Made by a program: the position numbers and the translations under genes
Shown: positions 28,456 through 31,773 of the stretch, piece by piece
Position numbering within the stretch: position 1 is the stretch's first letter
How the letters are laid out: each line of letters starts with the position of its first letter
From: a virus
Length of the DNA stretch: 41,324 nt
Strand: one strand, 5' to 3'
Virus record (IMG/VR): IMGVR_UViG_3300039308_000029
Location: 1 to 41,324 of that record
The notes under the pieces: model-generated
What the model was told of the DNA's origin: nothing
Database searches by the model: none
What the model saw: only the letters and a program-made list of their open reading frames with translations

Positions 28456-28704
28456 CTAAGCCGTCGGCTTTGGATCGTCACGACGGCGGTTCTGCCCGGA
28501 CGGTGCCTCGCCGAAAACTTCTGGGTTCAACTCGTAACGGGTCACCTCGCCTGCAAATGCGTCTTCGATTGCGCGACAGCGCTCCGCCGGCGCGTATCCC
28601 TGAGCAACCCACTTTTGAACTGCCTGCGGCTTAACTTTCAAGATGCATCCGAGGGCAGTTTGGCTACCGGCTAGGCGAACCGCCTTTTGAATTCCTGTTT
28701 CCAT
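28456..28704 (-). CDS. Cro-like repressor (YdaS/Cro family), 82 aa
   Basis: It starts METGIQKAVRLAGSQTALGCILKVKPQAVQKWVAQGYAPAERC, the helix-turn-helix of YdaS/Cro-type proteins (residues 10-35), followed by RAIEDAFAGEVTRYELNPEVFG and a basic disordered tail. It is transcribed away from the CI-like gene, and three operator-like sites lie between the two. It should repress cI and, later, its own operon after induction. Confidence 0.87.
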   Translation of the reverse strand: METGIQKAVRLAGSQTALGCILKVKPQAVQKWVAQGYAPAERCRAIEDAFAGEVTRYELNPEVFGEAPSGQNRRRDDPKPTA

Positions 28705-28726
28705 GGTGGTCGGTTTTCGAGTTGCC

Positions 28727-28802
28727 TTACAACCGCAGGTTACAGCAAGGCAGGCCTTTCTACAACTTTCTTTTGCAGTGCGCGTTACAACCAATGCTTG
28801 TA
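28727..28802. promoter_or_regulatory. Right operator region: three operator-like sites and divergent promoters
   Basis: Three 17-18 bp sites share the pattern TRYAA-N(6-7)-GTTGTA read on the minus strand: 28727-28744 (plus strand TTACAACCGCAGGTTACA), 28760-28777 (CTACAACTTTCTTTTGCA) and 28785-28802 (TTACAACCAATGCTTGTA). The minus-strand promoter for cro has TTGTAG at 28760-28765 and TAACCT at 28737-28742, 17 bp apart, so two sites overlap it. The third overlaps a weak plus-strand -10 (TATTCT at 28801) for cI. This matches the logic of a lambdoid OR with three sites. Confidence 0.75.
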
Positions 28803-28813
28803 TTCTTGCGCGC

Positions 28814-29521
28814 ATGGAAACCATGGCTAACCGGATAGAGCAGGCACTGGCACAAAAGAACGGCGGAAATCAGTCCGAGATGGCTCGCTTCGTAGGCGTG
28901 TCTCCTCAGGCAGTACAGAAATGGGTTGCGGGAGACAGCGAGCCACGCGGAGCCAACTTGAAGCGCGCGGCAGAGTTCCTTGGCGTGTCGGAAGTGTTCC
29001 TGAAGTTCGGCCTTCAGCCGATGGCCGAGAAGACCGTGGTTCCTCAATCCATCCCCGGCGCCCGTCGCGTCATCGCGGTCGACGACGAGGAGGAGCATCC
29101 CGACCTAGTGCGGGTCCGGAAGGTGAAGTTACGTCTGTCGGCCGGCATCGCTGGTTTCGCCGTTGAGGATGAGATCGAGGACGACAACCCGATCAGCTTC
29201 CGTCGGAACTGGCTGGAGAAACGCGGATTCACCCGCGAGCAGCTTATTGCGTTGCCGGTGAAAGGCCAGAGCATGGAGCCTGGCCTGTATGACGGAGATA
29301 CCGTCGTGGTGAATACGGCGGACCGGAAGCCCCGGGACGGCGAGGTCTTCGCGGTCAACTATGAGGGCGAGGCCGTCATCAAGCGGATGGTGCGCGAGAT
29401 CGGCTTTTGGTGGCTAGTTTCGGACAATCCGGACCAGCGCCGCTACCCGCGGAAGCAGTGCACCGGCGACATGTGCCAGATCCTCGGGAAGGTCGTGCAC
29501 AAGCAGAGCGAGCATATCTGA
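28814..29521 (+). CDS. CI-like repressor, XRE plus S24 peptidase, 235 aa
   Basis: Residues 19-38 (NQSEMARFVGVSPQAVQKWV) are the helix-turn-helix. The hinge LSAGIAGF offers an Ala110-Gly111 cleavage site. The S24 fold has VKGQSMEPGLYDGD with nucleophile Ser153 and GEAVIKRM with Lys190. Spacing is close to lambda CI (111, 149, 192), so RecA-stimulated self-cleavage on DNA damage is expected. No ribosome-binding site precedes ATG 28814 and the likely transcription start is next to it, so a leaderless message is possible. ATG 28823 with GGA upstream is the alternative. The protein should maintain lysogeny. Confidence 0.93.
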   Translation: METMANRIEQALAQKNGGNQSEMARFVGVSPQAVQKWVAGDSEPRGANLKRAAEFLGVSEVFLKFGLQPMAEKTVVPQSIPGARRVIAVDDEEEHPDLVRVRKVKLRLSAGIAGFAVEDEIEDDNPISFRRNWLEKRGFTREQLIALPVKGQSMEPGLYDGDTVVVNTADRKPRDGEVFAVNYEGEAVIKRMVREIGFWWLVSDNPDQRRYPRKQCTGDMCQILGKVVHKQSEHI

Positions 29522-29721
29522 TGTTCGAGACGGCCTACTTCGCGCTGCGAAACCACTTCCTGGCGCGGCCGGGGGAAGAATTCACGCTCCAGCAGGCGCA
29601 CGAGCTCTGGAATGACCCGTACGGACCGCAGCAGCCGGTTCACCTGACGGAGAAGGCGCTGGAAGCGCTGGAGCGGCAGGGGACGGTGCGTATGAGGGAC
29701 ACTTTCTACTACTTCGGGTAA
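29521..29721 (+). CDS. Small hypothetical protein after cI, 66 aa
   Basis: The ATG overlaps the cI stop (TGATG), so it is translated with the repressor in the lysogen. The product MFETAYFALRNHFLARPGEEFTLQQAHELWNDPYGP has the shape of a small winged-helix: a helix, the TLQQAHELW helix, then LTEKALEALERQGTVRMRDTFYYF with a beta wing. This could be a DNA-binding partner or an anti-repressor. The family is not known to me. Confidence 0.65.
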   Translation: MFETAYFALRNHFLARPGEEFTLQQAHELWNDPYGPQQPVHLTEKALEALERQGTVRMRDTFYYFG

Positions 29722-29764: not shown

Positions 29765-29818
29765 TTGTCATGTCCATTTTTTCGACTACAATTGAGGTGT
29801 AAAAAATGGACATGGAGG
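29765..29818 (+). promoter_or_regulatory. Promoter overlapped by a perfect 14-bp inverted repeat
   Basis: TTGTCA (29765-29770) and TACAAT (29787-29792) are 16 bp apart, a strong sigma-70 promoter. CATGTCCATTTTTT (29769-29782) and AAAAAATGGACATG (29801-29814) are perfect inverted copies whose centres are 32 bp apart, about three helical turns. One arm lies between -35 and -10, the other just after the start point. GGAGG (29814-29818) is the ribosome-binding site of the next gene. Autorepression by the XRE protein of this operon is the obvious hypothesis. Confidence 0.75.
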
Positions 29819-29822
29819 TCTT

Positions 29823-30479
29823 GTGCCTGGTACTGTACGTCAAGAACAACTGGATGTGGCTCACCGGCTTTCCCAACTCGGCCTGACGCGCGAGAAGCTG
29901 ATGAGCATTGTCCGCGCCTGCGTCGCTGGACACGGCGGCTGTACCGATAACGATCCGCCGAACGCTAGGGGGTTTGAGTCGTGGCGCTGGGGAGTGCGTC
30001 GCGCACGTGAAGAATTGCGTCCAGAAGGCTGGGAGAAGAACGATGCTGGTAACTTCTCCACGGTGATCAATCGCGAACTCAAGATTCGGCTCGCAATTAT
30101 GAACGCGGATGATGGTGCAGGTCTGCCCAATCGCGTGCCGCAAAACCGTTCGAAGAAGGGCCCGAACTCCGAGAGAGTCGCTGCGACGAACGAGGATTTG
30201 CAGTTCAAACTTCCAGGGATGGAACTCTGGCCCGCCCCCGGGGCACAAGACGACCCTGGACTTGAGGAATTCTCGACTTGGCACCTCTGCGTCTATATCA
30301 GCGGCGATAAGGTACGCGCTGAATTAACGTTACTCCGAGGCTTCGTGAACGGCTTCTTCACTGACTTCATCGAGAAGATTATCATAGTAGGCGACGGTGA
30401 ATGGGACAGAGAGAATGTCTTCGACGACCCCAATGACGCCGACGATAATGAGTACGAAATTGAAGTGGTAAGGAAATAA
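29823..30479 (+). CDS. Hypothetical partner of the XRE-ImmA protein, 218 aa (candidate toxin or effector)
   Basis: GTG start with GGAGG four bases upstream. The N-terminal part (residues 1-95) is helical and begins MPGTVRQEQLDVAHRLSQLGLTREKLMSIVRACVAGHGGC, a shape that could bind DNA or a partner protein, followed by WRWGVRRAREELRPEGWEKND. The C-terminal 75 residues are strand-rich and very acidic (HLCVYISGDKVRAELTLL, then a DDPNDADDNEYE tail). No enzyme motif is obvious. Seven bases separate it from the XRE-ImmA gene, and both share the palindromic promoter. Two-gene operons of this kind include RosmerTA-like toxin-antitoxin defence pairs; whether this one belongs there is not decided by sequence alone. 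Its lower GC supports recent acquisition. Confidence 0.65.
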   Translation: MPGTVRQEQLDVAHRLSQLGLTREKLMSIVRACVAGHGGCTDNDPPNARGFESWRWGVRRAREELRPEGWEKNDAGNFSTVINRELKIRLAIMNADDGAGLPNRVPQNRSKKGPNSERVAATNEDLQFKLPGMELWPAPGAQDDPGLEEFSTWHLCVYISGDKVRAELTLLRGFVNGFFTDFIEKIIIVGDGEWDRENVFDDPNDADDNEYEIEVVRK

Positions 30480-30486
30480 TTAAACA

Positions 30487-31590
30487 ATGTTCAATCCGCT
30501 TCGACTAAGTCTGGCGCGGCGGCGAAGAAAGCTCACAAAAAAAGCACTCGCCGAAGCGGTAGGCTTCGATCAGAAAACCGTCATCCGTTACGAAGCCGGT
30601 GAGGTTGAACCTCCTGCGGACAGTATTGCTGCCCTCTCAGCAGCCCTCGATTTTCCTGAGTCTTTTTTCTTTGGCACGGACGTCGACGAACCACAAGCTG
30701 AAGCGGCCAGTTTTAGATCGCTCAGCTCGATGTCTGCGCGTGATCGCGATGGTGCTCTTGCTGCCGGCGCCTTCGCCTTTCTATTGAGTGACTGGGTGGA
30801 CGAACGGTTTAAGTTACCTATCCAGGATCTTTTGGACTGCAAGGAAGATTCCGATCCTGAAGCGGCAGCTCGTATGTTGCGGCAAAAGTGGGGGTTGGGA
30901 GAGCGGCCGGTTAGAAACATGGTGCACCTACTTGAATCAAAAGGGGTGCGAGTGTTCTCGCTCGCTGAGAACACTCAAACCGTGGATGCCTTTTCAATGT
31001 GGCGTAACAACACGCCATATGTATTTCTCAATACGTTTAAGACTGCAGAAAGAAGTCGGTTCGATGCAGCCCATGAGCTAGGCCACTTAGTGTTACATAA
31101 ACATGGTGGCCCACAAGGGGGGCGCATCGCGGAGGACCAGGCGAATCAGTTCGCATCTGCTTTCCTCATGCCCGAGGCGGAAGTGCGAGCGAAGCTTCCG
31201 CGTATCGGCTCTCTCTCGGAAATCGTTGAAGCAAAGCGTTACTGGCGAGTGTCCGTCGCAGCTCTGAACTATCGCCTGCACAAGTTGGGTATTACAACGG
31301 ATTGGCAGTACCGAAACTTCTGCATTCAAATTGCTGAGCGATTTCGGAAATCAGAACCTTATGGAATTGAACGCGAGGAATCGATTGTCTGGGAAAAAGT
31401 ATTGGCGGATCTAAGGTCTACGGGCACCACAAAACGACATATTGCCAGCGATATTGGCCTTCCAGTTACGGAAATTGAGAATCTTCTATTCCGTCTCACA
31501 AACATGCAGACCTTGAGTGGGAAAGGAACCGGAAGCGGGCAGAGCCGAGCGAAACTATCGCTCGTGCAAGACGATGACTTGGCAGCATAA
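30487..31590 (+). CDS. XRE regulator fused to ImmA/IrrE metallopeptidase, 367 aa
   Basis: Residues 5-60 are a helix-turn-helix (LARRRRKLTKKALAEAVGFDQKTVIRYE). Residues 130-270 are the ImmA/IrrE (PF06114) domain with FDAAHELGHLVLH, the HExxH zinc motif at 196-200, and Glu216 in AEDQANQFASAFLMP as probable third ligand. Such proteins act as antitoxins or repressors and some destroy a partner by proteolysis. The C-terminal 90 residues are helical with a second possible helix-turn-helix (RHIASDIGLPVTEIENLLF). It follows the 218-residue gene in one operon under the palindromic promoter. Its codon use is less GC-rich than the phage core. Confidence 0.88.
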   Translation: MFNPLRLSLARRRRKLTKKALAEAVGFDQKTVIRYEAGEVEPPADSIAALSAALDFPESFFFGTDVDEPQAEAASFRSLSSMSARDRDGALAAGAFAFLLSDWVDERFKLPIQDLLDCKEDSDPEAAARMLRQKWGLGERPVRNMVHLLESKGVRVFSLAENTQTVDAFSMWRNNTPYVFLNTFKTAERSRFDAAHELGHLVLHKHGGPQGGRIAEDQANQFASAFLMPEAEVRAKLPRIGSLSEIVEAKRYWRVSVAALNYRLHKLGITTDWQYRNFCIQIAERFRKSEPYGIEREESIVWEKVLADLRSTGTTKRHIASDIGLPVTEIENLLFRLTNMQTLSGKGTGSGQSRAKLSLVQDDDLAA

Positions 31591-31626: not shown

Positions 31627-31749
31627 CATTTCTGGCGTCACTTACTCGTCATTTTCGTTATGTACTATTCCGGACGTGGGGAAAGAGCGATACCGCCGCC
31701 CACCCTCCGGAGCTGGCGGTCGGCAGTAATACCAGCATCAGATCTCACG

Positions 31750-31773
31750 GCCCTCCCTTCGCGGAGGGCTTTT
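31750..31773 (+). terminator. Second terminator before zinc-ribbon gene B
   Basis: GCCCTCC and GGAGGGC pair around CTTCGC and are followed by TTTTCATTT. The sequence after the hairpin (TTTTCATTTCT) repeats that found after the previous terminator. No gene is visible between the two, so the 31591-31881 gap holds terminators and little else. Confidence 0.75.

Follow-up and report, generated by a model that had tools for sequence, protein, structure and literature searches.

What does a two-gene operon carried just downstream of a phage repressor gene do, and on which component of the cell would its toxin act? The operon, rmrTA, lies in IMG/VR virus record IMGVR_UViG_3300039308_000029, positions 1 to 41,324 (the window, the whole 41,324-nucleotide stretch that was analysed). 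By profile comparison it is a RosmerTA system, and in many relatives of its toxin, RmrT, a short linker peptide corresponds to the published bacterial sliding-clamp-binding motif. This suggests that many RmrT toxins work through a grip on the ring-shaped clamp of DNA polymerase.

The gene pair matches RosmerTA profiles

The operon comprises the following features.

29823–30479, plus strand: rmrT, RosmerTA toxin gene, 218 amino acids, GTG start (PADLOC profiles)

30487–31590, plus strand: rmrA, antitoxin gene encoding an XRE helix-turn-helix and an ImmA/IrrE (Peptidase_M78) metalloprotease, 367 amino acids (profiles)

31072–31086, plus strand: HELGH zinc site of RmrA, residues 196–200 (12-protein alignment)

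The preliminary description of this DNA had reported a 218-residue product with an acidic tail that it did not recognise, followed by an HExxH metalloprotease with a helix-turn-helix, and had proposed a toxin-antitoxin or anti-phage module with the first protein as its possible effector. Indeed, the open reading frame (ORF) at 29823–30479 encodes an acidic C-terminal stretch ending in EIEVVRK, and the second, which begins 7 nucleotides past the end of rmrT, combines HTH_3 (PF01381, expectation value E 1.5e-8, residues 10–59) with Peptidase_M78 (PF06114, E 2.2e-25, residues 150–265); HELGH and E216 were invariant across 12 aligned RmrA proteins. The comparison with RosmerTA profiles that had been suggested was run, and the PADLOC models matched both proteins over nearly their full length. 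RmrT matched PDLC03935 (E 3.4e-39) and PDLC03932 (E 2e-26), each over residues 5–218 of 218, and RmrA matched PDLC03949 (E 5.4e-149) over residues 1–360 of 367. In Pfam, PHROGs and NCBIfam, RmrT had no match up to E 1. By these profiles the pair is a further member of an already described kind of system, and by analogy with the RosmerTA family RmrT would be toxic, RmrA would neutralise it and the pair would protect against phage. Chain A of PDB 9vzy, a 393-residue 'HTH cro/C1-type domain-containing protein', aligned with positions 2–280 of the 361-position RmrA profile (E 1.9e-12) and is possibly a solved Rosmer-type antitoxin.

Failure of the homologues to co-occur had been named as evidence that would speak against such a module; the opposite was found. 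Scans with an RmrA alignment yielded 336 relatives in viral and at least 550 in genomic sequences. The best 80 from each were used, giving 160 loci picked by RmrA alone with the toxin disregarded. An RmrT-profile ORF, ending at most 200 nucleotides from the start of the rmrA ORF, lay directly upstream on the same strand in 153 of the 160 (median gap 3 nucleotides). Among the remaining seven, a toxin match lay further off in two (L122, L140) and was absent from five; in L051 and L168, which had no toxin match, the contig ended about 250 and 142 nucleotides upstream of the RmrA match. RmrT was matched in 171 of 176 records overall (175 loci and the window). Single-sequence scans with RmrT returned nothing from viral contigs, genome contigs or a phage collection, because RmrT diverges fast and not because it is absent. 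The nearest relative among the loci kept was in a metagenome-assembled Pseudomonadota genome (L097; RmrA 74% and RmrT 57% identical).

A plasmid scan with RmrT gave 31 records at 25–34% identity. Fourteen plasmid loci were examined, and an XRE/ImmA gene was annotated immediately after the toxin in 11; the exceptions were L008, where the ImmA gene is shortened and lies further downstream, L013, which is unannotated, and L015, with a short toxin ORF and no ImmA-type gene annotated. Defence-type neighbours were annotated in seven of the 14 (L004, L005, L006, L007, L010, L012 and L014) and comprised an AbiEii-type toxin, restriction/modification enzymes, a Vsr endonuclease, a NACHT protein and an anti-phage dCTP deaminase. 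In an Enterobacter plasmid (L196, 1–1208), rmrTA follows a gene for a Y-family DNA polymerase, a clamp-binding type of protein. Loci L054 and L055 (2668–4095) hold an unusually long RmrA-like ORF (475 codons if read from its first start) with no RmrT-profile match in the locus; this gene is possibly paired with another partner.

A clamp-type peptide in the RmrT linker

In an alignment of 13 RmrT proteins, short conserved blocks flanked a variable linker containing peptides such as NQLDLF, QLSLF and NQIDLF. The bacterial clamp-binding motif has been given as QL(S/D)LF, with the general forms Q-phi-x-[L/M]-[F/L] and Q-phi-x-[L/M]-x-[F/L] (PMC11139829). At the sequence level, the linker peptides of many RmrT proteins are this motif.

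The linkers of 163 of the 165 distinct RmrT rows were compared, the window being row L001 and the fragments L015 and L140 being excluded. The strict motif Q-x-x-[LMI]-F was present in 68 of the 163, compared with a mean of 2.1 and a maximum of 6 in shuffled linkers, and occurred outside the linker in 4 of the 163 proteins. It was retained in divergent rows, being found in 33 of 89 below 50% identity (vs 0.9) and in 21 of 60 below 40% (vs 0.7). Elsewhere in the same loci, RmrA proteins had it in 8 of 168 cases and the remaining ORFs in 29 of 609. Exact QL[SD]LF occurred in 7 of the 163 linkers (0.0 in shuffles). Looser forms with Q raised the count to 100 linkers (shuffled mean 8.9, maximum 16), and the much longer remainder of the RmrT proteins contained them in 29 of 163. 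By form, 44 linkers carried the five-residue motif, 23 the six-residue motif, 26 another Q-x-x-[LMI]-F and 9 x-x-[LFI]-P-G-phi (7 with Q). In a weighted 117-row alignment (A3, built from the window's RmrT plus 116 non-redundant candidates out of 133, the other 17 having been omitted by hand), the corresponding columns were N.62, Q.74 (of non-gap rows; 18% gaps), two variable positions, L/M.81 and F.80. Among the papers listed in a literature search, with most subscription journals and preprints outside its reach, none reported that Rosmer toxins carry a clamp motif.

The same place was inspected in 24 toxins whose neighbouring RmrA proteins are more distant relatives. Left out were duplicates (L189, L190, L200, L202, L207, L208 and L216), first-cluster loci (L179 and L210–L214) and loci with an N-terminal match only (L191–L193 and L218). 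The two toxins checked against PADLOC, L177 and L178, matched other RmrT models (PDLC03933, 03934 and 03937). The A3 profile barely detected or missed the distant toxins (E 0.001 to >1; L199 was borderline at E 0.001), except for L215 and L220, which did match, and the profile-profile probability between the distant toxins and A3 was 67%. Several of them nevertheless carried N-x-Q-x-x-L-F at this position, as QFDLF, QYNLF, QLDLF, QLSLF or QISLF, and others carried QLELDL or QLEMDL. A five- or six-residue form was present in 14 of the 24 (shuffled mean 2.0, maximum 7) under a pattern looser than the review's definition, with L215 (QDKLKL) and L219 (QNDLL) doubtful.

The peptide of the window's own toxin

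The RmrT of the window carries a variant form at this position.

30201–30221, plus strand: QFKLPGM, proposed sliding-clamp-binding peptide, codons 127–133 (position and family motif)

It belongs to nine rows with PG (L160, L147, L150, L127, L040, L085, L002, L069 and the window). The closest relatives of the window's toxin have QASLF (L097), QMALPL (L096), QLSLPF (L016) and QLKFPF (L019) at the same place. Hda, a proven clamp ligand, has been given as an example with PAQLSLPLYL (PMC11139829), and QMALPL and QLSLPF resemble its QLSLPL. Judged by these relatives, clamp binding by RmrT is likely for the window's clade; given the window's variant peptide, it is only plausible for this copy.

A predicted route from RmrA to the sliding clamp

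A sliding clamp has recently been linked to a Rosmer toxin. Pneumococcal RipAB (spr1630/spr1629) is a Rosmer toxin-antitoxin system whose toxin, RipA, met DnaN in two-hybrid and split-luciferase tests; suppressors of RipA mapped to dnaN residues H183, L185, Y249, Y333 and L371, which belong to the hydrophobic pocket for protein binding (PMC12795458, published December 2025). The main text of that paper does not use the words 'motif', 'clamp-binding', 'consensus' or 'pentapeptide'. Like the window pair, RipAB has an XRE-ImmA antitoxin; unlike it, RipAB is tied to competence in Streptococcus pneumoniae (PMC12795458). At the linker position, QFDLF, QISLF or QYNLF is present in toxins encoded next to relatives of the RipAB antitoxin, which remain below the model cut-off: with NF052239, the window's RmrA scored 135.6 bits and seven nearer relatives 200–244, all under the cut-off of 335. 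In the Caulobacter crescentus SocAB system, the toxin SocB arrests replication when it binds DnaN, for which it uses the usual clamp-binding motif (PMC9690074).

We consider it probable that rmrTA is a RosmerTA anti-phage module placed beside CI, in which RmrA both represses and neutralises, and freed RmrT blocks the DnaN pocket through its loop peptide and stops replication. RmrA would be repressor and antitoxin in one, its helix-turn-helix keeping the operon low from paired arms at the rmrT promoter. It would also neutralise RmrT, as expected from the family. An incoming phage would upset RmrA or the balance between the two proteins and so free RmrT, whose flexible-loop peptide would enter the hydrophobic pocket of the sliding clamp DnaN. 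RmrT on the clamp would displace the polymerase and other clamp clients, DNA replication would halt and the infected cell would yield no phage. The target, the trigger and the neutralisation in this scheme are what we infer for RmrT. A phage with an O-like initiator, such as lambda, depends on the host replisome; the phage of the window would need it too, and RmrT should therefore be silent during its own lytic growth.

Several observations weigh against this scheme. QFKLPGM agrees with the published definition no further than its first four positions, having no F, L or I at position 6, and at position 2 its F is a non-aliphatic residue. A different candidate peptide is GMELW, which overlaps the end of QFKLPGM. 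In the alignment, the columns with conserved Q and L are occupied in the window's toxin by E124 and Q127. Of the 163 family linkers, 45 have xx[LM]F but lack the Q, and 16 show no motif that can be recognised; among the 24 distant toxins, 10 carry neither the five- nor the six-residue form. What ties RipA to the window's RmrT family is the shared Rosmer name and the antitoxin profile. Finally, the Rosmer toxin of Gordonia phage Kita depolarises membranes and is described as having no detectable similarity to other families (PMC10440598), so the RosmerTA label by itself leaves the target unfixed.

The Kita system also frames the alternative that the toxin acts elsewhere, for example at the membrane, the peptide being an unrelated docking site such as one for RmrA. 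Kita RosmerTA resembles the window pair in being phage-borne, in having a toxin gene beside an ImmA-protease antitoxin gene and in matching the same family models. RosmerTA toxins are diverse, as the membrane-depolarising Kita RmrT illustrates (PMC10440598), and a conserved loop peptide could be bound by an antitoxin. The window's toxin, in contrast, belongs to the PDLC03935/PDLC03932 cluster with the clamp-type peptide. That peptide follows the published clamp consensus, down to exact QL[SD]LF in seven linkers and none expected from shuffles, and the window's RmrT is predicted to be a compact alpha/beta protein. An action elsewhere is, in our judgement, improbable.

Predicted RmrT structure and the nuclease question

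The model of the window's RmrT had a mean predicted local distance difference test score (pLDDT) of 90.4. Its low-confidence loop, residues 131–150, follows a helix at 114–127, and QFKLPGM stands at the loop start. The second-cluster toxin L199, modelled from 9 rows (pLDDT 80.4), had its lowest-confidence stretch at residues 130–137, beginning at the last residue of QFDLF. The two models ran through their elements in a similar order, from helices to three strands, a helix, the loop and three more strands.

Structural comparison pointed weakly to restriction endonucleases. With VIA-align, the window model was led by NaeI (Z 6.3), EcoRV (5.7), SfiI (5.7) and DpnI (5.3), and the L199 model by EcoRV (Z 5.6), most of its top rows being EcoRV entries. 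Rep15, a non-nuclease, was close behind in both lists (Z 4.9 and 5.2, respectively), Z below 8 being the range in which common arrangements occur, and identities in the lists were 2–12%. In Foldseek the top match of the window toxin was EcoRV (E 0.039, weak), and that of L199 was a Cas4-family ACE1 protein (E 7.5e-4, TM-score 0.19). The tentative fold assignment rests on the two VIA lists because the first Foldseek search is weak by itself. Restriction endonucleases thus led for two separately predicted, sequence-dissimilar RmrT proteins. Compared by sequence with solved structures, RmrT reached a best E of 0.48, and with an alignment there was no match up to 1; BFVD gave no RmrT match at E 0.001 or below.

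In a rival reading, RmrT would have the restriction-endonuclease fold and be active as a nuclease; the clamp peptide would do no more than recruit it to replicating DNA, with DNA damage killing the cell or blocking the phage. The leading structural matches of both models would suit such a nuclease, as would E85-x-K87 near a possible active-site strand of the window's RmrT. The nuclease matches, however, lie under Z 8 with Rep15 close behind, and the likeness to EcoRV, NaeI and other PD-(D/E)XK proteins is one of weak fold without a conserved (D/E)xK in either RmrT set. In the first cluster, any one pair of columns carried (D/E)xK in at most 22 of 165 rows, and in the second set the maximum was 4 of 24; the active site may be an unusual one. 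The near-invariant charged positions R62, E167 and R185 (K in the window) do not give the usual D...(D/E)xK order. Nuclease action seems unlikely to us.

A more tentative proposal, which we hold with less than even confidence, is that the RmrT proteins of this cluster and at least one further cluster may be restriction-endonuclease folds that have lost catalysis and now arrest replication by poisoning the clamp, through a central-loop peptide in the DnaN pocket. On the same tentative view, the docking peptide may have persisted as the remainder of the loop and a good part of RmrT diverged, and RosmerTA would be a widely distributed defence directed at the one replisome component that lambda-like phages have to take from their host.

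Putative promoter and operator of the operon

The preliminary description had also placed a sigma-70 promoter, TTGTCA and TACAAT separated by 16 base pairs (bp), under a perfect 14-bp inverted repeat with centres 32 bp apart. Both were found as described.

29765–29792, plus strand: putative sigma-70-like promoter, TTGTCA (29765–29770), 16 bp, TACAAT (29787–29792); consensus match only, 10 of 12 positions

29769–29782, plus strand: operator-like repeat, left arm CATGTCCATTTTTT, perfect 14 nucleotides, overlapping the -35 hexamer

29801–29814, minus strand: operator-like repeat, right arm, complement of the left arm, in the presumed transcript start

29814–29818, plus strand: GGAGG, likely rmrT ribosome-binding site, read by eye

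The promoter itself is only plausible, since four promoter-like sites of this kind occurred in the 4-kb region and 1.2 were expected. GGAGG at 29814–29818 is what we take to be a ribosome-binding motif. The left arm shares bases with the -35 hexamer, the -10 hexamer sits between the two arms and the right arm falls where the message presumably begins, so that the promoter would be covered if a protein occupied both arms. A paired-arm pattern composed post hoc from this site and its relatives matched the window at this site alone and in 0 of 100 shuffles. Folding of the site as single-stranded DNA gave z = -5.8.

The repeat was conserved in much of the family. Upstream of 130 RmrT genes (including the window's, pairwise below 80% identity), with centre distances of 14–36 bp allowed, 10-nucleotide arms with at least 9 matching positions were present before 81, against 8.0 expected from dinucleotide shuffles, and arms matching at all 10 positions before 45, against 0.4. 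Centre distances among the 81 were 32–36 bp in 66 and 30–36 in 70, 36 being the limit. When the limit was raised to 54, at least 9 matches were found before 86 of the 130 (10.0 in mononucleotide shuffles), with distances from 16 to 44 and 45 of the 86 at 32–36. The distance varies with the choice of 10 nucleotides inside longer arms, the window site measuring 36 with 10-nucleotide and 32 with 14-nucleotide arms. Arms of the window type, ATGT(T/C)(G/C)ATTTT, were present in the operators of several relatives. These counts argue for a conserved, probably autoregulatory site and not a chance palindrome; the repeat is probably a family-wide operator, which fits autoregulation, and RmrA would be its binder. 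Half-sites about three helical turns apart are wide for one dimer. A terminator-like hairpin at 31749–31770 (plus strand), about 160 bp past rmrA, is a possible end of the operon transcript, such sites being not clearly above chance there.

Position in the phage genome

The window is, from its gene content, a lambda-like temperate phage, and rmrTA is its cargo operon just downstream of the CI gene.

28703–29521, plus strand: CI-type S24 repressor gene, true start probably further in (Peptidase_S24 E 1.8e-22, phrog_4 E 2e-49)

Both repressor matches begin at base 28820. A Cro-like gene (28456–28824, phrog_35) lies on the opposite strand to the repressor gene, and the same genome encodes CII, a lambda-O-like replication initiator, NinB and a RecE-like exonuclease. 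In lambda, rexAB follows the repressor gene on the same strand. The rex position assigned earlier to the pair agrees with its location on the strand of the CI-type repressor gene and after it, with one small ORF between. That ORF, of 66 codons (29521–29721, plus strand), overlaps the last base of the repressor gene and had no Pfam match above the cut-off and none in PHROGs up to E 1.

A metalloprotease with a helix-turn-helix adjoining a CI gene could also suggest a prophage immunity switch of the ImmR/ImmA kind and not a toxin-antitoxin pair. In ICEBs1, separate repressor and protease genes, ImmR and ImmA, control the element's own genes (PMC10440598); RmrA, unlike these, has helix-turn-helix and protease in one protein. 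Control of the phage's own immunity genes by the inverted repeat was considered and dropped, the operator arm occurring within the window before rmrT only, at up to 2 mismatches. The same pair is moreover found on plasmids and bacterial contigs, with defence-type genes near 7 of the 14 plasmid loci. We regard an immunity switch as highly improbable.

Implications for RosmerTA defence

RosmerTA is often annotated, and the toxin targets published in the sources at hand are few, namely the membrane (PMC10440598) and the sliding clamp (PMC12795458). The RipA-clamp link is recent; what is new here, at the level of sequence, is a clamp-type peptide in much of the RmrT family (in 68 of 163 linkers by the strict pattern and in 100 by the looser one), which makes the toxin target testable. 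If the loop peptide binds DnaN and carries toxicity, much of this defence family would gain a mechanism. This may also be a reason for narrow phage spectra, and phages with their own clamp or a bypass should escape. RmrT loops would, moreover, be a source of natural clamp ligands.

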